Origin: Pirellulales bacterium | Lineage (GTDB): Bacteria > Planctomycetota > Planctomycetia > Pirellulales > JAIMBC01 | DNA: 39,260 nucleotides | Assembly: GCA_023511675.1 (NCBI GenBank) | Contig: JAIMBC010000019.1 | Span: forward strand, 1-39,260 | Direction: 5' to 3' | Part shown: one piece after another, positions 5,505 to 20,840 of the stretch | How positions within the stretch are numbered: position 1 is the stretch's first letter | Layout: each line of letters starts with the position of its first letter | The notes under the pieces: generated by a model | What the model saw: the letters and a program-made list of their open reading frames with translations, nothing else | Databases searched by the model: none | Told to the model about the DNA's origin: nothing | Program-made: the position numbers and the translations under genes

Positions 5505-5690
5505 GCCCGCGCCGTGGCTGGGGGCGTTGACGGCGCACGCCATGCGTTGACGAGTTCGCGGCAGAGTCGGTGCGCCGGGGCGTTTACGGCCCAGGGCGTA
5601 GGCGGGCGCATACGTCGTCCACGCCGTGCGTTGGCGCGTAGGCCGCCCACGCCGTGGGTTGGTCGCGCACGCTGTGCCATGCTGCCGCGG
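5505..5690. repeat. Degenerate GC-rich tandem repeat block (CACGCCGTGCGTTGGCG-like units)
   Basis: CACGCCATGCGTTGACG (5536), CACGCCGTGCGTTGGCG (5620), CACGCCGTGGGTTGGTC (5648), CACGCTGTGCC (5668); less clear units between. Located between convergent genes. Confidence 0.55.
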
Positions 5691-5865
5691 CCGAGGAGCA
5701 GTCGCTGGCGCTTCTGGCGGGGCGGGCTGCTTTGCCGGAGATCGCGTTTGGGCATGCGCGGCGTCGATCACACGGGTGTCGGGGCGGGCTGGCTTCAATG
5801 CCGGGAGGATGCTCCACCTCGTTGGGCGGGCCGTCGCGCCGCCAGCGGGATCAACGAGCCCGGGC

Positions 5866-8118
5866 TCAATCTGTTTCCGGTTCGATCAGGAAGCACTCGC
5901 CGTCCAGATTGATCAGCACAGGCTCATCGAACACCAGGTACTGGGAGAGGCGTTTGCCGTGGCGAGCGGCGAGGTCGAAGTACTCGTCGCTGAACTGGGC
6001 CACGCGCTTGGCATGACGTTGCATCTCCTCGGTGACCGTGGCATCGACCCACTGGCTGTTCTTGCGGTAGAACGCCTTGTTGCCGATGTTGCGCACGGTA
6101 TCGACCACCACATCCCTGTCCGAGGCGGCATCGCGATACACGGCCTGGCCTCCGGGTCCGGCGGGAGCAGCAGCCAGGTTCTGACCGCGCAGCAGTTCGG
6201 CCTTGGCGCGGCGCTGCGAGAAGCCGCCCTGCCCCTCCGCCATCTTCAGTTGGTCCACCTCCCTGGCGGCCCGTGGCAGATTCGCTGCCACGCTCAGAGG
6301 CGCGCTCTCGTCCGCCAGGAAGGAGGTGTAGGGCGTGAGAATGCCATGCCGCGTGGAAAGGCCCACCAGCTCCTTCACCAATTCCTCGTTGGGGCCGTTC
6401 AGGTCCAGTTCGTCGATGATCTCGCCAATGCGGCGAATGGCCCACAGTTTCTCCACAAAGGCAAACGTCTCGTCCTTGCTCTCGCCGGCAAACTCCGCCG
6501 GAAAGTCGAACGCCTGCGGCTGCCCTTGCATCATCCCCCTGATCACCACCCGCGCCGCGCCCGCCTGCCGGTAACGGCCCACGACCACAAGCTGCTCGCC
6601 GGCAAACAAGTCGAACGCCCCTCTCGGATAGACACGATTGACCGCAGCCCCAGCCCCTCCGTCCAGCGTGATTTCCACCTGCACGTCCGTCAGCACCGGC
6701 GCCTCGATTTTGCGGTACAGCGATGCCACGCGCTCCTCGAGATTCTCCTTCGGGCGCACATACTCGCTCTGGCCGAAGTGTGCCCGGGCCAGCCGGTCCA
6801 ACAGGCGGCTGTTGACGTCGTAGCCCACGCCAAACACGATCATGCGGGCACGCACCTGGTTCTGCGCCTTGCTGTTGGCGACGATGCGCATCTCGTTGGT
6901 CTCACCGGCGGTGGGCAAACCGTCGGTGAGAAACAGCACGTAGTTGGGACGGCTGGAATCCTTGAGTTGCGCCAGGGCCGTGGCCAGGGCGCCGTCGATG
7001 TTGGTGCTGCCGCCGGCGTAAATGCCCTCGACAAAGGCCAGCGCCTGGCTGCGGCTTTCTTCCGTGTAGCGCTGCAGTTCGGGGCGGAAGGACTCGACCC
7101 CGCTGTCGTAGGTGATGATGTTGAACAGATCCCCCTCCCGGAGGTTGTTGAGCACGAACTTGAGCGCCCCCCGGGCCTGCTCGATCTTCTCGCCGCTCAT
7201 GCTGCCGGAGCGATCGAGCACGAACAGCACGGTCTTGGCTGCCGGCTCTGCCATGGCGGCACGCACGTCCGGGCTGGCGAGAATGAGAAAGTACCCCTCG
7301 TCATTCGCCGGCTTGTAGCTCATCACGCTAGCGCCCACGGGTCCCTCGCCCACGTCGTAGAAGAGGCGAAAGTCGCTGCTGGGGATCACGCGTTCCGCCT
7401 TGTACGTCACGGTGGCCGTGCGTGCCTCGCGCACCACGTCGACCGTGTGCGTCGGACTGTACACGTTCTTGATCTCGGCCTGAGACTCAATGGTCAGGCG
7501 AAGATTCAGCCGCTCCAGCGGCTCCGAGGTGTATCGCGCGGTGGCCAGGGGGAAGAGAAAATCGGTCAGGCCGCGGTCCTTCCGGCAGAGCTGCGTGTAG
7601 CGCAGGGAGACCTTCCGCTCGGCGCCGGGTGGGACCGGAAACACGCTGGTCTGGAACAGGCCCGTCCCCATCCACTCCAGCAGCGCCGGATCGCGGTTCT
7701 TGCGCACGATCTCCTCATACAGGCGGCGGGCCTCTTCCTTGCCCAGCAGCTTGGCGGGGTACTCCTTCCCATCGATCAGCAGCGTAAGCTGGTCGATAGC
7801 CCCATCGTACGGCAGCGGGAAGACGAAACACACTTCCATGACCACGCTGCCGGTGTTCACAAACGACTGCGAAACCTGCACACGCGCCACCTGTTCTTGC
7901 AGCCGCACCTGCACGTCCAGCTCCTTGATCTTGTAGCTGGCCGTCGGTACCGGCGGCGGCACAATAATGATGGGCCGCGGCAACCTCATCTGCTGATCCG
8001 GCTGCACATTCACCAGCAGCCCCTGCCCCCACGCCGCCGAGGCTGCCAGCATCAGCATGCAATTCATCAACCCTGCTGCCCACACGACGCGGCCAGCCCG
8101 AACAAGCTGCCTGAACAT
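5866..8118 (-). CDS. Secreted VIT domain plus von Willebrand factor A domain protein (inter-alpha-trypsin inhibitor heavy-chain-like)
   Basis: Signal peptide; VIT-like VQVSQSFVNTGSVVMEVCFVFPLPYDGAIDQLTLLIDGK...AKLLGKEEARRLYEEIV; VWA MIDAS VLFVLDRSGSMSGEKIEQAR. Confidence 0.9.
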   Translation of the reverse strand: MFRQLVRAGRVVWAAGLMNCMLMLAASAAWGQGLLVNVQPDQQMRLPRPIIIVPPPVPTASYKIKELDVQVRLQEQVARVQVSQSFVNTGSVVMEVCFVFPLPYDGAIDQLTLLIDGKEYPAKLLGKEEARRLYEEIVRKNRDPALLEWMGTGLFQTSVFPVPPGAERKVSLRYTQLCRKDRGLTDFLFPLATARYTSEPLERLNLRLTIESQAEIKNVYSPTHTVDVVREARTATVTYKAERVIPSSDFRLFYDVGEGPVGASVMSYKPANDEGYFLILASPDVRAAMAEPAAKTVLFVLDRSGSMSGEKIEQARGALKFVLNNLREGDLFNIITYDSGVESFRPELQRYTEESRSQALAFVEGIYAGGSTNIDGALATALAQLKDSSRPNYVLFLTDGLPTAGETNEMRIVANSKAQNQVRARMIVFGVGYDVNSRLLDRLARAHFGQSEYVRPKENLEERVASLYRKIEAPVLTDVQVEITLDGGAGAAVNRVYPRGAFDLFAGEQLVVVGRYRQAGAARVVIRGMMQGQPQAFDFPAEFAGESKDETFAFVEKLWAIRRIGEIIDELDLNGPNEELVKELVGLSTRHGILTPYTSFLADESAPLSVAANLPRAAREVDQLKMAEGQGGFSQRRAKAELLRGQNLAAAPAGPGGQAVYRDAASDRDVVVDTVRNIGNKAFYRKNSQWVDATVTEEMQRHAKRVAQFSDEYFDLAARHGKRLSQYLVFDEPVLINLDGECFLIEPETD

Positions 8119-8594
8119 GGCGCATGTCTCCTCAAAACAGAACCATTCGCTCTCGACACATTAGACGTGTACCTGACCACCCAAGTTCCCTTCGCCTGAG
8201 AGGCTGCACAAGCTGGCAAGACCAGGCGGTCCCACGAGCGCGAGGATGCGAAAAAGATCGTTGCCGCTGGGACAAAGCGGCCGTACGCCGCTCGCCCCGG
8301 ATGCAAGCTGGCATCGTTCCGGGAGCAACACCGTGTGATGACCGGTTCGCATGACGGCAAATCGCGCTCAGCGTGGGATGGGCCGCTCATTCTACGCCGC
8401 GCATGGTATGGCTGTTTGCCCCCTTGCGCAACGCGGGTGTAACGTGCAGGCTGCGGGCAGGGGATGTGGCGGGGCGGTGTGTATGTTCCACGGGTACAGC
8501 GGGCATGGCGGCCACCTACGTGGGCCACAGGCACCGGGCGATACGGCGGTCATGCTAGCACGGATCCTCGCCCTTGGCAGGTTTTGCTAACTGG

Positions 8595-9040: not shown

Positions 9041-10192
9041 ATGAGCACTCAGGCAGCCGGGCCGGTTGACACGCCCCTGGCCCAGGTGAAGCTGGGCCGC
9101 GATGTGCTGTTGCACGAGGCGCAAGCGATTGAGCGATTGGCCCGCAGGCTGGGCAACAGCTTTGCCGAGGCGGTGGCCCTGCTTGCCGGATGTCGGGGCC
9201 TGGTGGTGGTGACGGGCATGGGCAAGGCCGGACACATCGGCAAGAAGGTCTCTGCCACACTGGCCTCGACGGGCACGCGCAGCATCTACCTCCACCCTGC
9301 CGAGGCCGTGCATGGAGATCTGGGCCGCCTCAGGCCGGACGACGTGGTGTTGGCCTTCTCTCAGAGCGGTGAAACGGAAGAACTCTTGGCCCTGCTGCCG
9401 GCCCTCGCCCAACTGGCCGTGCCGCTGGTGGCCGTGACCTGCCGTGCGGAGAGCAGCCTGGCCCGCGCGGCTGCCGAGGTGCTGGACCTGGGCGTCAGCG
9501 AGGAGGCATGCCCCCTGGGGTTGGCCCCCACCAGCAGCACCACGGCCATGCTGGCACTGGGAGATGCCCTGGCCGTGGTGGCAAGCAGGATGCAAGGGTT
9601 CGACCGCAGCGATTTTGCCCGGCTTCATCCGGGAGGCAGTCTGGGCCGGCGTCTCGCCAAGGTAGAAAGCCGCATGCGGCCGCTGACCGTCTGCCGCGTG
9701 GCCAGCGAGGCGTTGGCGGTGCGAGAGGTGTTTGCGGCCGTCAGCCGGCCAGGCCGGCGCAGCGGGGCAATCTTGCTGGTGGCCCCAGACGGCCGCCTCA
9801 GCGGCATTTTCACCGACAGCGATCTGGCCCGCCTGTTTGAAGCCCGCCGCGACGCCGATCTGGACCTCCCTATCCGCCTGCTCATGTCTCCCCACCCCGT
9901 ATCCGTTCCCCAGGGAACCTTGCTCACCGAAGCGATCAACCTGATGGCCGAACGTAAAATCAGCGAGCTGCCCGTGGTAGACCCCCAAGGCCGTCCCCTC
10001 GGCTTGCTCGACATTACGGATGTGCTGGGTATGATTCCACCAGAGCCGCTGGCGGCCAGGGCAGGTTCGGCGCAAACCAGACGCGATTTGCCCGCCCCCC
10101 ACACGCTTCGCAGGAACCCCAGTAGCACCATCCCGGAAACCAGCACCGATCTGCCGCTGCTCGACGCCGATGCCGGCTTGCCCAGCCCATGA
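9041..10192 (+). CDS. kdsD: Arabinose-5-phosphate isomerase (KpsF/GutQ/KdsD family, SIS domain plus CBS pair)
   Basis: GLVVVTGMGKAGHIGKKVSATLASTGTRSIYLHPAEAVHGDLG, FSQSGETEEL, LHPGGSLGRRL; C-terminal CBS repeats. Start ATG 9041 chosen over the upstream in-frame ATG at 8930. Confidence 0.93.
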   Translation: MSTQAAGPVDTPLAQVKLGRDVLLHEAQAIERLARRLGNSFAEAVALLAGCRGLVVVTGMGKAGHIGKKVSATLASTGTRSIYLHPAEAVHGDLGRLRPDDVVLAFSQSGETEELLALLPALAQLAVPLVAVTCRAESSLARAAAEVLDLGVSEEACPLGLAPTSSTTAMLALGDALAVVASRMQGFDRSDFARLHPGGSLGRRLAKVESRMRPLTVCRVASEALAVREVFAAVSRPGRRSGAILLVAPDGRLSGIFTDSDLARLFEARRDADLDLPIRLLMSPHPVSVPQGTLLTEAINLMAERKISELPVVDPQGRPLGLLDITDVLGMIPPEPLAARAGSAQTRRDLPAPHTLRRNPSSTIPETSTDLPLLDADAGLPSP

Positions 10193-10269
10193 CCGTGCGG
10201 CCCTCTCATTACAACCCCTACTAACCGCAACAGCCAACGCGGCGGCAATCCCGCCCGCAGGATGCCTCC

Positions 10270-10791
10270 ATGACACTGGTACGCCGCTGCCAGCGAATCG
10301 AGCTGATTCTGGCCGATGTGGACGGCGTGTTGACCGACGGCACGCTGATCCTCAGCAACGAAGGGATCGAGACAAAGCTGTTTCACATCCGTGACGGGTT
10401 GGGGATCAAGCTTTGGCAGCGTGCGGGCGGCAAGTTTGGTCTGATCACCGGCCGGAGTTCCCACAGCGTGAACCTGCGGGCAGCCGAGCTGGGCATTGAG
10501 CTGGTGCGGCAGGGCACGGAGAACAAGCTGGCGGCGGCGCGGGAGATCTTGGCGACGTTAGGGCTGGTACCGGAGCAGTTGTGCTTTATCGGAGACGATC
10601 TGCCGGATCTGGCCGTGGTGCGCTGGGCCGGGCTGGGCGTGGCCGTGGCAGATGCCTGCGAGGAGGTACGAGCGGCGGCACACTATGTGACCTCGCTTTC
10701 CGGGGGGCATGGGGCCGTGCGCGAGGTGGTTGAGCAAGTCCTCAAGTCTCAGGGCCGCTGGGACGACGTGGTACAGTTGTTTCAGGGCTGA
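10270..10791 (+). CDS. kdsC: 3-deoxy-D-manno-octulosonate 8-phosphate phosphatase
   Basis: HAD motif ILADVDGVLTDG, FHIRDGLGIKL, FGLITGRSS, CFIGDDLPDL; immediately downstream of kdsD. Confidence 0.93.
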   Translation: MTLVRRCQRIELILADVDGVLTDGTLILSNEGIETKLFHIRDGLGIKLWQRAGGKFGLITGRSSHSVNLRAAELGIELVRQGTENKLAAAREILATLGLVPEQLCFIGDDLPDLAVVRWAGLGVAVADACEEVRAAAHYVTSLSGGHGAVREVVEQVLKSQGRWDDVVQLFQG

Positions 10792-10812
10792 CCCAGTAAC
10801 TCAGGCCACACC

Positions 10813-13800
10813 GTGTTGCACCGCCTGATTCGCACCACACTCAGCCTGTTGCTGCTGCTGGCGGCGTACGGGCTGTACAGCCGGCTGGTCGTGCCATGGA
10901 TCGAGCCCGCTGCCCGCCGTCCTCAGGGCCGCGCCTCAACGGAAGCCGAACGTGCGGCCGCGCGCAACGCCGTGCGGGCCGCGCGCGAGGAACTATCTGC
11001 CTGGTTCGCTCCCGGCGATTGGGAGCTGCACTCCTCCAAGATCCTTGAAACGCCCCAGGGCAAGCTCCTGCTCGAGCAGTACCAGAATGTTGGCCGGGGC
11101 CAGATTCGCGTCCGCCCCTGCACCATGGTGCTCTGGCCCCAAGGCCAGTTCGAAGACGAGCGCGAGCGGCAGCGCCGGGCCATCGTGGTGCAAGCTCCGT
11201 CCGGCGCCATCCTGCAATTCGACAGCGAGTTCGATCTGAAACAGGGCCGTGTCGGCAAGCTGGTGGGGGGCAAACTGGTCGGCCGCGTGATCCTGCGCAG
11301 CGACTGCAAACACCCCGGGCCAGCAGACGACCTGTGGGTCACTGCTCGCGAACTGTACCTTACCGAAGAGCGCCTCACCTCCGCGCACGAGGTGCGCTTC
11401 CGCCTGGGAGAGAACCGGGGCCAGGGCCGGGAACTCGTGGTGCGGCTGGCCCGCACGTCCGGTGCCGGGGACCAGCCAGCCAGCGGCGCGGTACGTACCG
11501 TGGAATTGCTGCAAGACGTGCGGCTCGAAGTGCAGCAAACAGGCGCAGGCCTGTTTGCCGGCCTGTCACCCCTCGGCAAAGTGCCAGGGTCGCCGCGAAT
11601 GGCAGCCGCCCCGGCAGGAAGCCAGTTGCCACCCGGCGCGCCTGCGGCGGATGTCTTGCCCCAGCCGCCCACGCCGGCAGCCGACGCCACGGCGCGGCCC
11701 GGCCCCGTGGAAGTGGCTTGCGATGGGCCGTTCCGCTTCGATCTGGAGCAACAGGTGGCGACCTTCGAACGGCGCGTCACCGTGCGGCGGCGCCTGCCCC
11801 AGATGGCGCCTGACGCCCTCGATTGTGAGCTGCTGGCCATTCACTTTCGCCGCGAGCCAGCGTTGTCGGGCCAACAAGAGGGTGCCGCGACGGACGCGTC
11901 TGGACCGCGTGGTGCGTCTGACCCGACCGATGCGGGGGCCGGGCGGCTGGTACCAACCCGCATTGTGGCCACAGGTGATCCCGTGGTGGTCGAGTCTCCG
12001 CTGTATGGCGTCTCTGCGCGGGCCAGCCGCGTCGAATACGATTTGCAGTCGGGAATGGTACGCCTGCACGACCGCAAGCAGGCCCTACTGCGCCGGCTGG
12101 ATGCTGTGACAGGGGAGCAGCGCGAGATCCGCTGCCTGAGGCTGGAGTACACGCCGGACCCGCAGGGAGGCTGGGGCACGCTGCTGGCGGAGGGACCCGG
12201 CTGGATGCGCGGCTGGCTGCCCACCGAGGACCCGGCCCAGGCGGCCGGCGCCTCGGGGGAGGTGCAGCGTGCCGCAAGCGCCGCCGCACTCTCAGACGCA
12301 CAGACCGACGTGAGTTGGGAGCGGCACCTGCACTTTCGCCTGCACGAGGGATTGCGCGTGCTGTCGCTGATGGGCCCTGCGCGGATGGCCCTGCCGGGCC
12401 AGGCCAGTCTGGCCGCAGCCGAGATCCATGTGTGGTTGCGCGAGGACCAGGCTCCGCCCCCCCCAGCAGGCAACCCCGGCCGGCTGATCCCCGAACGCCT
12501 GCTGGCACGCGGCAACGTCGAGATCGATTCTCCCCAGTTCCTCGGCAGCGTCTCCGACCTGCAAGTGTGGTTTGAACGCCCACCCTCTGTGCCCAGTCTC
12601 CAGCCTGGGGCCCATGCCCTAGGGGCTGCATCGCCGGTCACGGCAGGCGAGGAACCGGCAACGGCCCTCCACGAGGCCGCTGCTCTGCCCGCCGGCGCGC
12701 ACGATGACGCGGGGCCGCGATTGTTCCCAGCCGAAGGCGACTCCGAGCAGCAAGCGGGCAGCTACGACATCTCGGCCCAACTGCTCCAGGTGCGCTTGCT
12801 GCTGCGGGAAGGGCAGGCCCTGGTGCCGGTGGAACTGCGGGCACAGGGCGCCGTGCGGCTGCGCGAGCTGGCCGGCGATGGTGGGCGTGCGCCGCTTGGG
12901 CTGGACGGCGAGCTGATGCATGTGCTGCAACAGAACGGCGTGCTCACGTTGACGGCTGCTGGCGCGCCCTCCACGCTGTTCGGGCCTGGCGTCACGCTGG
13001 TGGGCGAGCAGATCGTCGTCGAGCAAGCTGCCGAGTTGCGGGTGACGATCGACGGCGCCGGGCAGATGCAGATCGACGCACCGGCGGCCAGCGTCGGGCA
13101 GGCGCCCGGCTGGCAAGCAGACGCCGGCCCGGACCGCCTGCTCATTCGTTGGGACAGGGCCTTCCAGCTCCGGGGGCGTACGGCCCGCTTCACGGGGTCC
13201 GTGGCGGCCAGCCGCGCGCACGAGGAGCTGAAGACCAACGAGCTGCTGGTCGAGTTCACCGCTCCGCTCCGTCTGGATCTCCACGATGACAGGCGGCCGG
13301 GTCTGGCTCGGCTCACCTGCCCGGGGCAGGCACACCTCAAGCGGCGAAGCCTCCAGCTCGGCCAGACACGCTCCCTCGATCGGCTGCTAGTGAAGGACCT
13401 GCGGTGGGACATGCAGACGGGGCGCCTGTGGTGCCAGGGTCCCGGCTGGCTGCGGACCACCTCGATGGGAAGCAGCGTCTTGCCCCCCCCTGGCAAGACA
13501 GCACCGCAGCCCGCGGTCCCCCCCTCCGGCGGCGTGGATGGCCCAGCCCAGGACGCCGCCGCAATGGTGCGGCAGGGTGCGTTGCTCATGGCGAGCGGCG
13601 GCCGGGCGGCAGAGGGCACGCCTGCCGCGGCACTCCTCGGCCCAGCCGAGGCCGACGCTGGCGGCTCCTCGGGCCTGACCTTTCTGGGCGTGGAGTTCCA
13701 GCAGTCCCTGGAGGGCAATCTGCAACAGCGCGAGCTGGCGTTCGTCGGCGGAGTGCGTGCCGTGTACCGACGGGTGTCTCGCTGGGACGAAGAGCTGCCT

Positions 13801-14172
13801 GCCGATGAACCCGACTTGCGGGGAACAGAGGGCTTTGCCCTGCAGTGCGAGCGGCTGCTGGCCGCCGAGATGGGCCAGTTGGCCGACGGCGGGCCTGCCT
13901 ATGACCTCGAGGCCAGCGGAACCACCATCGTGGAAGGAGCTGACTTCACCGCGCAGGCGCATCGCATGAGCTACTCCCAGAGCAAGGACCTGCTGCTATT
14001 AGAAGGAGGCGGCCGCGACGATGCCAGGTTGCTGCGCCGCGCGGCAGACGGCTCTCGCCTGGGCGAAACACAGGCACGCAGAATCTACTACTGGCGCTCG
14101 CGCAACCGGGTGCGGGTAGAGGATATCCGCGGCTTCGACGTCAACGACCTTGGCCTGCGCCAGCGGCACTAG
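10813..14172 (+). CDS. Very large LptC/LptA-like (OstA-type) periplasmic LPS-transport-related protein
   Basis: 1119 aa; N-terminal TM anchor MLHRLIRTTLSLLLLLAAYGLYSRLVVPWIEP; repeated beta-type segments such as VEVACDGPFRFDLEQQVATFERRVTVRR and PTRIVATGDPVVVESPLYGVSARASRVEYDLQSGMVRLHDRKQALL; position after kdsD-kdsC matches lptC-lptA in proteobacteria. Confidence 0.65.
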   Translation: MLHRLIRTTLSLLLLLAAYGLYSRLVVPWIEPAARRPQGRASTEAERAAARNAVRAAREELSAWFAPGDWELHSSKILETPQGKLLLEQYQNVGRGQIRVRPCTMVLWPQGQFEDERERQRRAIVVQAPSGAILQFDSEFDLKQGRVGKLVGGKLVGRVILRSDCKHPGPADDLWVTARELYLTEERLTSAHEVRFRLGENRGQGRELVVRLARTSGAGDQPASGAVRTVELLQDVRLEVQQTGAGLFAGLSPLGKVPGSPRMAAAPAGSQLPPGAPAADVLPQPPTPAADATARPGPVEVACDGPFRFDLEQQVATFERRVTVRRRLPQMAPDALDCELLAIHFRREPALSGQQEGAATDASGPRGASDPTDAGAGRLVPTRIVATGDPVVVESPLYGVSARASRVEYDLQSGMVRLHDRKQALLRRLDAVTGEQREIRCLRLEYTPDPQGGWGTLLAEGPGWMRGWLPTEDPAQAAGASGEVQRAASAAALSDAQTDVSWERHLHFRLHEGLRVLSLMGPARMALPGQASLAAAEIHVWLREDQAPPPPAGNPGRLIPERLLARGNVEIDSPQFLGSVSDLQVWFERPPSVPSLQPGAHALGAASPVTAGEEPATALHEAAALPAGAHDDAGPRLFPAEGDSEQQAGSYDISAQLLQVRLLLREGQALVPVELRAQGAVRLRELAGDGGRAPLGLDGELMHVLQQNGVLTLTAAGAPSTLFGPGVTLVGEQIVVEQAAELRVTIDGAGQMQIDAPAASVGQAPGWQADAGPDRLLIRWDRAFQLRGRTARFTGSVAASRAHEELKTNELLVEFTAPLRLDLHDDRRPGLARLTCPGQAHLKRRSLQLGQTRSLDRLLVKDLRWDMQTGRLWCQGPGWLRTTSMGSSVLPPPGKTAPQPAVPPSGGVDGPAQDAAAMVRQGALLMASGGRAAEGTPAAALLGPAEADAGGSSGLTFLGVEFQQSLEGNLQQRELAFVGGVRAVYRRVSRWDEELPADEPDLRGTEGFALQCERLLAAEMGQLADGGPAYDLEASGTTIVEGADFTAQAHRMSYSQSKDLLLLEGGGRDDARLLRRAADGSRLGETQARRIYYWRSRNRVRVEDIRGFDVNDLGLRQRH

Positions 14173-14388: not shown

Positions 14389-14826
14389 ATGGCTTGGCTG
14401 AGACACTTGGCATTGCGGTGCCGCGACATGGAACGCTCGCGCGCGTTCTACGAGCAGGTGATCGGCCTGCGCTTTGTGGGCTACCGGCCCCATGGCCGGG
14501 GCCTGGACCTGAGCGATGGCGTCAACAACATCACGCTCATCCAGCAGCCCGAGACGTGCCGCCGACAACCATTGCCCGAGGGCGAGGAGTTCATTCACTT
14601 CGGCCTGGTGGTGGATGATCCCGACCAGGTCTGGCAGCGGTTGCGCGCCTGGGGGGCAACCTTTGTACGTGAAGACGTCAAGCAGCGGCTGCCGATCCAG
14701 CCGGGCGACCGCCCCCCCGCCTCGTACAAGGTGCTCGACCCGGACGACAACGTGGTGGATATCACCTCCAACCGCCAGGAGTGGCGCGGCGTGGAACTGC
14801 CTGCCGTCCGCACCACGGCTGACTGA
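14389..14826 (+). CDS. VOC (glyoxalase/bleomycin resistance) family protein
   Basis: MAWLRHLALRCRDMERSRAFYEQVIGLRFVGYRP..., EEFIHFGLVVDDPDQVWQRLRAWGA, YKVLDPDDNVVDIT. Confidence 0.88.
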   Translation: MAWLRHLALRCRDMERSRAFYEQVIGLRFVGYRPHGRGLDLSDGVNNITLIQQPETCRRQPLPEGEEFIHFGLVVDDPDQVWQRLRAWGATFVREDVKQRLPIQPGDRPPASYKVLDPDDNVVDITSNRQEWRGVELPAVRTTAD

Positions 14827-15022: not shown

Positions 15023-15195
15023 CGATGGCCACCTAGCGATTGCCGCATCAGCGTGCGGGCTGAGCAATGTTTTCTGCGGGGCCCGTCCGCGGACATTGGG
15101 CCAGCGTTTCACACAAGAGGAGGCCTGCTGATGCCGCTGGTCAGGCCTCATCGAGTTGCTGTACGGTTACGATCACGCGGCAAGGAGTTGCAGAG

Positions 15196-17174
15196 ATGAC
15201 GTGGAAACCGCGGCTGGGGGCGTTTCCCCTCGATGGAGGCTATTGCTTTCGCGTCTGGGCACCGCAGGCACGCACCGTCGAGGTGGTGATCCAGCGGACA
15301 GCCGATGACGCCGCGCGGGGGCAAACGTCTGGTACCCCCGCACAGGCTGAGTGCCCACACGGGGCGCACGCGCGAGTCGAGCAGGCACACGGCGCGCAGG
15401 AAGGGGGCGACGAGTTGGTGCTGCCCATGGAGCGGGTCGAAGGAGGCTACTTCACGGCCTTTTCCACTGCCCTCCGCGCGGCAGACCGCTACCGCTACCG
15501 CGTCGACGGTGCGGGGCCGTTTCCCGATCCTGCTTCGCGATTTCAGCCGGAGGGGGTACACGGGCCGTCGGAACTGGTAGATCCCAGCCTTTTTTGCTGG
15601 ACGGATGCCGGGTGGGGCGGCGTGGCGCTGTCTGATGCCATCTTCTACGAGCTGCACGTGGGCACTTTTTCGGCGGAAGGCACATTTGCCGGCGTGGTCG
15701 AGCGATTGCCCAAGTTAGTGGAGTTGGGGGTCACGGTGTTGGAGCTGATGCCGTTGGCCGATTTTGCCGGGCAGCGGAACTGGGGTTACGACGGCGTGAG
15801 CCTGTTTGCGCCCGCGCGCTGCTATGGCCGCCCCGACGATCTGCGGCGGCTGGTGAACGAGGCGCACCGGCTTGGCCTGGGGGTGATCCTGGACGTGGTC
15901 TACAACCACCTGGGCCCGGATGGGAACTACCTGGCCGCCTACAGCCCCTACTACTTCTCGCGAGAGCGGCACACGGCCTGGGGCGCCGGACCGGATTTCG
16001 ATGGTCCACACAGCAGCGCGGTGCGGGAGTTCTTCATCGAGAACGCCCTGTACTGGCTGCACGAATTCCATCTGGACGGACTGCGGCTGGACGCCACGCA
16101 CACGATCGTGGACACCAGCCGCCTGCACATTCTGGCAGAACTGGCTGAGCGTGTGCACGCGGCCTGCGCGCCGCGCCGCGTGTTGCTGATCGCCGAGGAC
16201 AATCGCAACCTGGCACAACTGGTGCGGCCGCGCAGTGCCGGCGGTTGGGGACTGGATGCCGTCTGGGCCGACGACTGGCACCATCAGATGCGGCGCCTGC
16301 TGGCGCAAGACCACGAGGGCTACTACCGAGACTACCGCGGCACGGTGGAGGACCTGGCCGCCACCATTCGCCAGGGCTGGCTCTACACGGGCCAGCATTC
16401 GCGGCATTGGGGCGCGCCGCGAGGGACGGACCCGGCCGGTCTGGCACCGAGGCAGTTCGTGGTGTGCTTGCAGAATCACGACCAGGTGGGCAACCGGGCC
16501 CTGGGCGAGCGGTTGCATCACCAGATCGATCTGGCGGCGTGGCGTGCCGCCTCGGCGCTCCTGATGTGCCTGCCGCAGACGCCGCTGCTGTTCATGGGCC
16601 AGGAGTGGGCAGCCACGTCTCCCTTCCTGTTTTTCACCGACCACGACGAGGAACTGGGACGCCAGGTTACCGCCGGCCGCCGGCGGGAGTTCCGGCATTT
16701 CTCGGCCTTTGCCGATCCCGAGGCCCAGCGGCGGATTCCCGATCCGCAGGCCGAAGCCACCTTCCGCGCCAGCCAGCTCGACTGGGATGAAATCCGCCGC
16801 GAGCCTCACGCCTCGATCCGCCGGCTGTACCAGACGCTGCTCTCCCTGCGGCGCCGCGAGCCGGCCCTGCGTTCGGCCCAGCTTGCCGTGCATCAGGTCG
16901 AGGCCGCGGGAGCAGACTCGCTCGTGCTACGCAGGCCTGGCGATGGCGAGGGAGATTGGCTGATCGTCGTCCGCCTGCGCGGCAGGGGTGCGGTCGACCT
17001 CCGCGGCCACGCCGTGGCAGAGCCTGGAACCGGCCGCCGCTGGGCGATATGTTTGACCACAGAGGATGCCGCATTCAGCCCTCAGCCGAATCCCCCGCAA
17101 GTCGATCTGACCACGGGCGGACCCCTGCTGCACTTTGCCGTCCCGGCCGCGGTCCTCTTGCGGGAACGCCACGC

Positions 17175-17178
<4 letters not shown>
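15196..17178 (+). CDS. treZ: Malto-oligosyltrehalose trehalohydrolase
   Basis: DAIFYELHVGTFSAEGTFAGVVERLPKLVELGVTVLELMPLADFAGQRNWGYDGV, HEFHLDGLRLDATHTI, LLFMGQEWAATSPFLFFTDH; AAGGAG SD before ATG 15196. Confidence 0.94.
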
Positions 17179-20234
<3,056 letters not shown>

Positions 20235-20236
20235 GC

Positions 20237-20480
20237 GATTTTGGATTGTTCCGCCGCCGCATGTTGCGCGAGAGCAGAGTTTTCCGGTGTGCCAAGGGAG
20301 CCGCTCCGAGAAGTTCGGATTACTCCTGTACCCCCGCGATCGGCCAGCCGCCATCCGCTTCGCGCAATCCAAAATCGGGCCATTTTGGATTTTCGATTTT
20401 GGATTGTTGTGCTGCAGCGTTTTGTGCCAGGGCAGGCTTTTCCTGCGTGCCTCATAGCCTTCCCGTGACTCATATCTGTA
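20237..20480. repeat. Two degenerate direct copies (~120 bp each) of an element starting GATTTTGGATTGTT
   Basis: GATTTTGGATTGTT at 20237 and GATTTTGGATTGTT at 20395; both continue through GTTTTCC/CTTTTCC..GTGTGCC/GCGTGCC to ACTCcTGTACCCC / ACTCATATCTGTACCCC. Confidence 0.6.
20365..20406. repeat. Nested inverted repeats allowing two alternative hairpins
   Basis: CAATCCAAAATC (20365-20376) / GATTTTGGATTG (20395-20406), and AATCCAAAAT (20366-20375) / ATTTTGGATT (20382-20391). Confidence 0.65.
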
Positions 20481-20840
20481 CCCCGCCATGGGCCAGACGC
20501 CATCCGCCGACGTGCCCGTTGGCCCAAATCTCTTGCCCGCGTCGCCGCGGGCCCAGCACACACGGAGAGCTGATCGGAATGAACATGCCCACTTCCTCAG
20601 CCAGCTTCGCCGTGGAGTACCTGCCAGTGCGTCTCCGTCGCCGCACCTGCTCGAGCCAGTTCTCGATCTCCAGGGAGCGTTGGTTCCGAATGCCCTCCTC
20701 TCTTTGGTGCTTGCTGCCTGTATATCGCCTTCAGGTAGCGTCATCGAGCTTCGGCGCGACCTGCCGGCGGCGTTCTCCGCACCGCACTGTCGGCCACACT
20801 CAGCCTCCGGCCGGGTTGTGATTCAAGCAGCGCCGGCCCG

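Follow-up and report, generated by a model that had tools for sequence, protein, structure and literature searches.

The 1119-aa protein encoded just downstream of kdsC in a Pirellulales genome is very probably a naturally occurring chain in which LptC is fused to about four beta-jellyroll units of LptA type, most likely forming the whole periplasmic bridge of lipopolysaccharide (LPS) export. An earlier note on this DNA had suggested a fused or greatly expanded LptC-LptA bridge, and that suggestion is supported by the predicted fold, by the repeats within the chain and by relatives in which LptC and two to three LptA domains occur in one protein. The components are of known kinds; the fused architecture of fixed length would be new. 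We infer that LPS is the cargo, that the protein docks to LptF/G and LptD, and that it occupies the bridge alone.

The kdsD-kdsC locus and its third gene

The DNA analysed, which we call the window, is a 39,260-nucleotide stretch of a Pirellulales contig. An ORF check found kdsD, kdsC and the 1119-aa frame in a row, as had been read from the letters (Table 1). The KdsD-like protein lies above the TIGR00393 cut-off of 203.7, and the third frame begins with a GTG codon 21 nt downstream of the kdsC stop. The corresponding slot in E. coli reads kdsD-kdsC-lptC-lptA-lptB. No lptB adjoins the fusion gene, consistent with the earlier note: it is absent from the first ORFs downstream in the window and in relatives, in which the genes 3' of the fusion gene vary, and the genome's own lptB lies on another contig.

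Table 1 Features of the kdsD-kdsC-fusion locus in the window, with the evidence for each
Feature	Position (nt)	Strand	Evidence
kdsD-like arabinose-5-phosphate isomerase gene, KpsF/GutQ family, SIS and two CBS domains	9041..10192	+	TIGR00393, 268 bits
kdsC, Kdo-8-phosphate phosphatase gene, YrbI family	10270..10791	+	TIGR01670, 157.7 bits (cut-off 107)
Probable LptC-(LptA)n fusion gene, 1119 aa; proposed single-chain LPS bridge	10813..14172	+	Conservation, synteny, fold, domains of relatives
Predicted N-terminal membrane anchor helix, residues 2-30	10816..10902	+	AF2; conserved juxtamembrane VP-x-IEP motif
Predicted LptC-fold domain, residues 62-240	10996..11532	+	AF2 of residues 1-250, Foldseek
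LptA-type repeat R1, residues 296-468	11698..12216	+	hhalign against R3, E 1e-9; against R4, 2e-8
LptA-type repeat R2, residues 498-760	12304..13092	+	hhalign of R1 against R2, 4e-5
LptA-type repeat R3, residues 772-888	13126..13476	+	Alignment with E. coli LptA; LptA matches of the PDB profile search
LptA-type repeat R4, residues 953-1110, C-terminal; proposed LptD-docking end	13669..14142	+	LptD_N match, 1031-1065

A search with a nine-sequence profile led to eight loci, its named matches being Pirellulales, Pirellula and other planctomycetes. Orthologues of the fusion, 963 to 1309 aa long, were found in 57 of 58 Pirellulales genomes, and the sole genome without one is 73% complete. The kdsD-kdsC-fusion order is kept in 32 of the 33 other loci examined in the order; in the single exception kdsD adjoins the fusion gene and kdsC is missing between them. 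This conservation and the kept gene order led us to reject a chance or spurious ORF as an explanation of the 1119-aa frame. Four genomes of the same class and another order (L144-L147) likewise have the fusion gene directly after kdsD, without kdsC between.

Several other features of the window were recorded. A gene on the minus strand (5866-8118), divergent from the kds-lpt cluster, encodes VIT and von Willebrand A domains and an apparent signal sequence. The fusion gene is followed by a small plus-strand ORF (14391-14826) with the look, by eye, of the glyoxalase/VOC family; no conserved counterpart of it was seen beside the fusion gene in relatives. Beyond it stand two tandem plus-strand genes of GH13 type (15067-17178 and about 17169-20234) with alpha-amylase Pfam matches, which we take to resemble treZ and treY of the maltooligosyl-trehalose pathway. 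Very long antisense ORFs lie opposite real genes (for example, 857 aa at 5626-8199 on the plus strand and 1220 aa at 17082-20744 on the minus strand); such frames are typical of high-GC DNA and are no evidence of genes.

The window protein falls below the standard family thresholds, scoring 16.8 bits against LptD_N (PF03968; cut-off 20.4) and 13.6 bits against LptA (TIGR03002; cut-off 71.7), and Pfam LptC (PF06835) found no match in it. When 34 orthologues were scanned as single sequences, LptD_N matched 28 of them (best 1.1e-9) and LptC matched 6 weakly; several orthologues exceed the PF03968 cut-off. A profile of the 34 orthologues, searched against all PDB sequences, gave nine matches, eight of them LptA (best E 0.0026). 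Profile comparisons against E. coli LptA and against E. coli LptC, each as a single sequence, were weak, and a PDB sequence search with the N-terminal domain returned nothing; the LptC identity of this domain came from fold comparison only. Judged by sequence, the window protein is a diverged member of a fusion family that is visible in its relatives, and the fusion would have been overlooked because it lies below the standard family cut-offs.

Predicted fold and LptA-type repeats

The full-length AF2 model, built from 9 sequences (mean pLDDT 69.6, pTM 0.53; folded parts mostly 75-94), shows a single membrane helix at the N-terminus, a second, short helix, about 55 strands and five disordered linkers. 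The single anchor described earlier is thus present in the model, and the chain after it is predicted to be all-beta. The juxtamembrane VP-x-IEP region is conserved, with P28 and P32 invariant in 34 orthologues; the orthologue N-termini have no obvious cleavage site by eye, and the anchor is predicted to remain uncleaved. The earlier note had staked its reading on beta-jellyroll repeats, and Foldseek comparison of the full model with the PDB matched LptD (E 2.6e-8, prob 1.00), LptA (2r19_A, prob 1.00, TM by target 0.73, rmsd 3.1), LptC (6mit_C, prob 1.00) and LptH (prob 1.00). The long LptD alignments have an rmsd of around 40 and support the jellyroll part only. An LptD fragment was considered and rejected, the protein having no barrel and the genome a separate full LptD orthologue. 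For a separate AF2 model of residues 1-250 (pLDDT 77.8), the best 5 of 350,542 PDB chains were all LptC (E 0.001 to 0.05; four at prob 1.00; TM by target 0.53-0.72).

A long, anchored and mostly beta protein could also be an AsmA/TamB-type bridge-like lipid transfer protein that moves phospholipids and sits beside kdsC incidentally, and Foldseek did weakly match ApoB and bridge proteins of eukaryotes (LPD-3, prob 0.57). However, Pfam AsmA/TamB models matched none of the 34 members, nor did such proteins appear among the top 50 Foldseek matches, whereas homologues carry Pfam LptC and LptA domains. The fold matches at prob 1.00 are Lpt proteins, and the N-terminus is specifically LptC. If the protein were of the AsmA/TamB type, the genomes of the order would also miss LptC and LptA despite having LptB, LptF/G and LptD. 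We regard this explanation as extremely improbable.

Blocks taken out of the alignment were set against one another as profiles, with 30 column shuffles as a control (best control E 0.015-0.063). Four homologous repeats were found, which upholds the earlier description of repeated OstA-like beta segments and refines it: the repeats are of LptA type, and the folded domain ahead of them, residues 62-240, is of LptC type and lies outside the repeat family. The order from the membrane outward is LptC and then the LptA units. R3 aligned with E. coli LptA residues 34-75 (P 2e-4), and R4 also matched E. coli LptA (P 3.5e-4). R2 has the weakest repeat support because a disordered linker (592-647) splits it; its two blocks, 498-590 and 648-760, matched R1 at 5e-7 and 2e-6.

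Across the 34 orthologues the folded blocks are mostly near-constant in length and the linkers are variable; as exceptions, some orthologues are shorter in the later half of R1 and the earlier half of R2. The five linkers, rich in A, G, P and S, together with the pTM of the full model, leave some room for an inner-membrane scaffold or regulator, in which degenerate Lpt-like repeats would be strung on long disordered linkers without a continuous groove. We consider this very unlikely: the conserved folded blocks would suit linkers that loop out of a conserved groove, and its retention by 57 of the 58 genomes points to an essential part of a transport system. For the LptC-LptA fusion itself, the low pTM, the small number of sequences behind the model and the five linkers mean that the relative placement of the units and the continuity of the groove are put forward as a proposal only. 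Conservation is highest in the anchor with its juxtamembrane segment, in the LptC domain, in the opening part of R1 and in R4; strong conservation of both ends would fit docking of the ends on partners.

LptH/LptA has 16 strands (PMC7347655). The earlier note had ventured that the length might be matched to an unusual envelope. About 55 strands would amount to some 3.4 LptA lengths, the LptC domain included, and an unusually wide periplasm need not follow. By our own estimate, at 4.8 A per strand and with two sheets, the bridge would be very roughly 130 A long.

Putative export partners and the search for separate LptC and LptA

The genome that carries the fusion also encodes LptB (322 bits, above cut-off), LpxC (282 bits) and one LptF/G protein (164 bits; C60:4108-5259). 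Most relatives show at least two LptF/G proteins, and the single match here probably reflects a gap in the assembly, which is 94.6% complete in 422 contigs, a single-gene state being the other option. The standard LptD model, PF04453, matches in no more than 6 of the 58 genomes, and we therefore started from one member that passes it and followed LptD by orthology. The LptD orthologue of this genome scores 947 bits against a relative above the Pfam LptD cut-off. Both lptB and lptD, which the earlier note had asked to be looked for, are thus present, away from the fusion locus. At the lptB loci L093-L100 of genomes of the order, lptB mostly stands, by eye, beside one or two signal-peptidase-like (lepB) genes and not beside other lpt genes.

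The earlier note had set its reading against normal-sized LptC and LptA encoded elsewhere, and none was found in the order. Pfam LptC gave no match in any of the 58 genomes. LptD_N, searched in the same genomes at E up to 0.1, gave 47 matches, 46 of which, judged by contig and coordinates, lie in the fusion or in the LptD orthologue; the remaining one is inside an 8787-aa frame. These results bear on the alternative that the protein is an enlarged LptC/LptA-like component which spans the periplasm only partly, with a small soluble LptA that escaped detection completing the bridge. The LptD_N model is insensitive, missing both the fusion and the LptD orthologue of this very genome, so that a divergent small LptA could escape it; the incomplete, fragmented assembly leans the same way, as do lineages elsewhere in the phylum that keep a separate LptA-like ORF. 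Against this stand the near-complete accounting of LptD_N matches, the empty LptC search and the short kdsC-linked protein of those lineages, described below. We therefore hold a partial bridge to be unlikely, although it is the strongest of the alternatives considered.

In known systems, LptF and LptG hold the LptC helix between them, the jellyroll of LptC extends the one of LptF, and LptA connects LptC to LptD (PMC9972910). By analogy, the N-terminal helix of the fusion would sit, like the LptC helix, in the inner-membrane transporter LptB2FG, and its LptC domain would accept LPS from LptF. The four LptA-type units would extend the hydrophobic groove across the periplasm, and the organism's own LptD would receive the last of them at its N-terminal jellyroll. 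The bridge would then be one covalent chain with a fixed number of units, as opposed to LptC plus an LptA oligomer.

Like LptC (E. coli 3my2; Enterobacter cloacae LptB2FGC 6mit), the window protein has a single N-terminal helix followed by a jellyroll and is encoded directly after kdsC. LptC, however, is a single domain of about 190 aa, whereas the window protein continues into four LptA-type repeats and lies below the Pfam LptC cut-off. With LptA/LptH (2r19, 4uu4) it has the repeat fold and sequence pattern in common. LptA is small and soluble, is secreted with a cleaved signal peptide and polymerises, whereas the window protein is predicted to be anchored and has its units chained in fixed number. 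The elongated transenvelope MlaD of Veillonella parvula (PMC10665443) is similar in that one enlarged anchored protein replaces the separate periplasmic and outer-membrane components of a lipid transporter, but it has an unrelated fold (MCE plus barrel) and handles phospholipid, and the window protein lacks a barrel.

Fused and split states across the phylum

A profile search of 120 genomes across the phylum found proteins between 343 and 1182 aa long, the majority encoded directly after kdsC or kdsD. Four homologues from other classes (L150, L151, L158 and L189; 660, 793, 1112 and 654 aa), linked to the family by its HMM (E 6e-17 to 4e-20), contain Pfam LptC (E 1e-17 to 7e-11) followed by two to three LptD_N/LptA stretches (E 1e-19 to 7e-24), all above cut-off. 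They are thus homologous to the window protein by profile and have LptC and then LptA in one chain; three of the four are encoded directly after kdsC, and all are much closer to the standard Pfam models than the window protein is.

Six genomes of the phylum (L178-L183) have an LptA-like ORF of its own, 167-228 aa long, which in none of them adjoins kdsC within the stretches read. Two split lineages showed both genes; their kdsC-linked proteins are short, at 343 and 359 aa, which argues against a full-length fusion being completed by a separate LptA. Where the kdsC-linked protein is at least 650 aa, no small LptA match was seen, within the sensitivity of the model. This pattern fits a putative stepwise absorption of LptA into the kdsC-linked gene. 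In one genome placed in the phylum (G075, locus L184, 3-5026), kdsD, a 301-aa LptA-like ORF, an lptB-like ABC gene and an rpoN-like gene stand in a row. This order is the proteobacterial one, and the genome is possibly early-branching, transferred or misplaced.

On balance, we favour the view that most Planctomycetota would export LPS across the periplasm on one covalent chain, an LptC head with fixed LptA units, whose length is set by the gene and which does without LptA oligomerisation. The phylum would then form a series from a split state (a short kdsC-linked protein and a separate LptA) to a fused one (650-1300 aa, no separate LptA).

In the literature searched we found no report of a natural LptC-LptA fusion, which is no proof that none has been described. 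According to an HMM survey (2022), Lpt is 'largely reduced' in Planctomycetes (PMC8871954); the outer-membrane survey of Speth et al. (2012) listed LptD and BamA in Planctomycetes and left LptA and LptC unmentioned (PMC3422733). In verrucomicrobial methanotrophs, LptC and LptA are reported to be encoded separately, by consecutively numbered genes (PMC10542722). With the fusion, the apparent gap in the Lpt system of Planctomycetes is removed: the missing parts exist as a fusion that standard models miss. The number of LptA units in the bridge is still debated (PMC7347655), and a unit number fixed by the gene makes that question directly testable by adding or deleting units in one chain. Structural studies of a continuous LPS bridge would gain from the fusion, too, as a single-chain reagent that occurs in nature.
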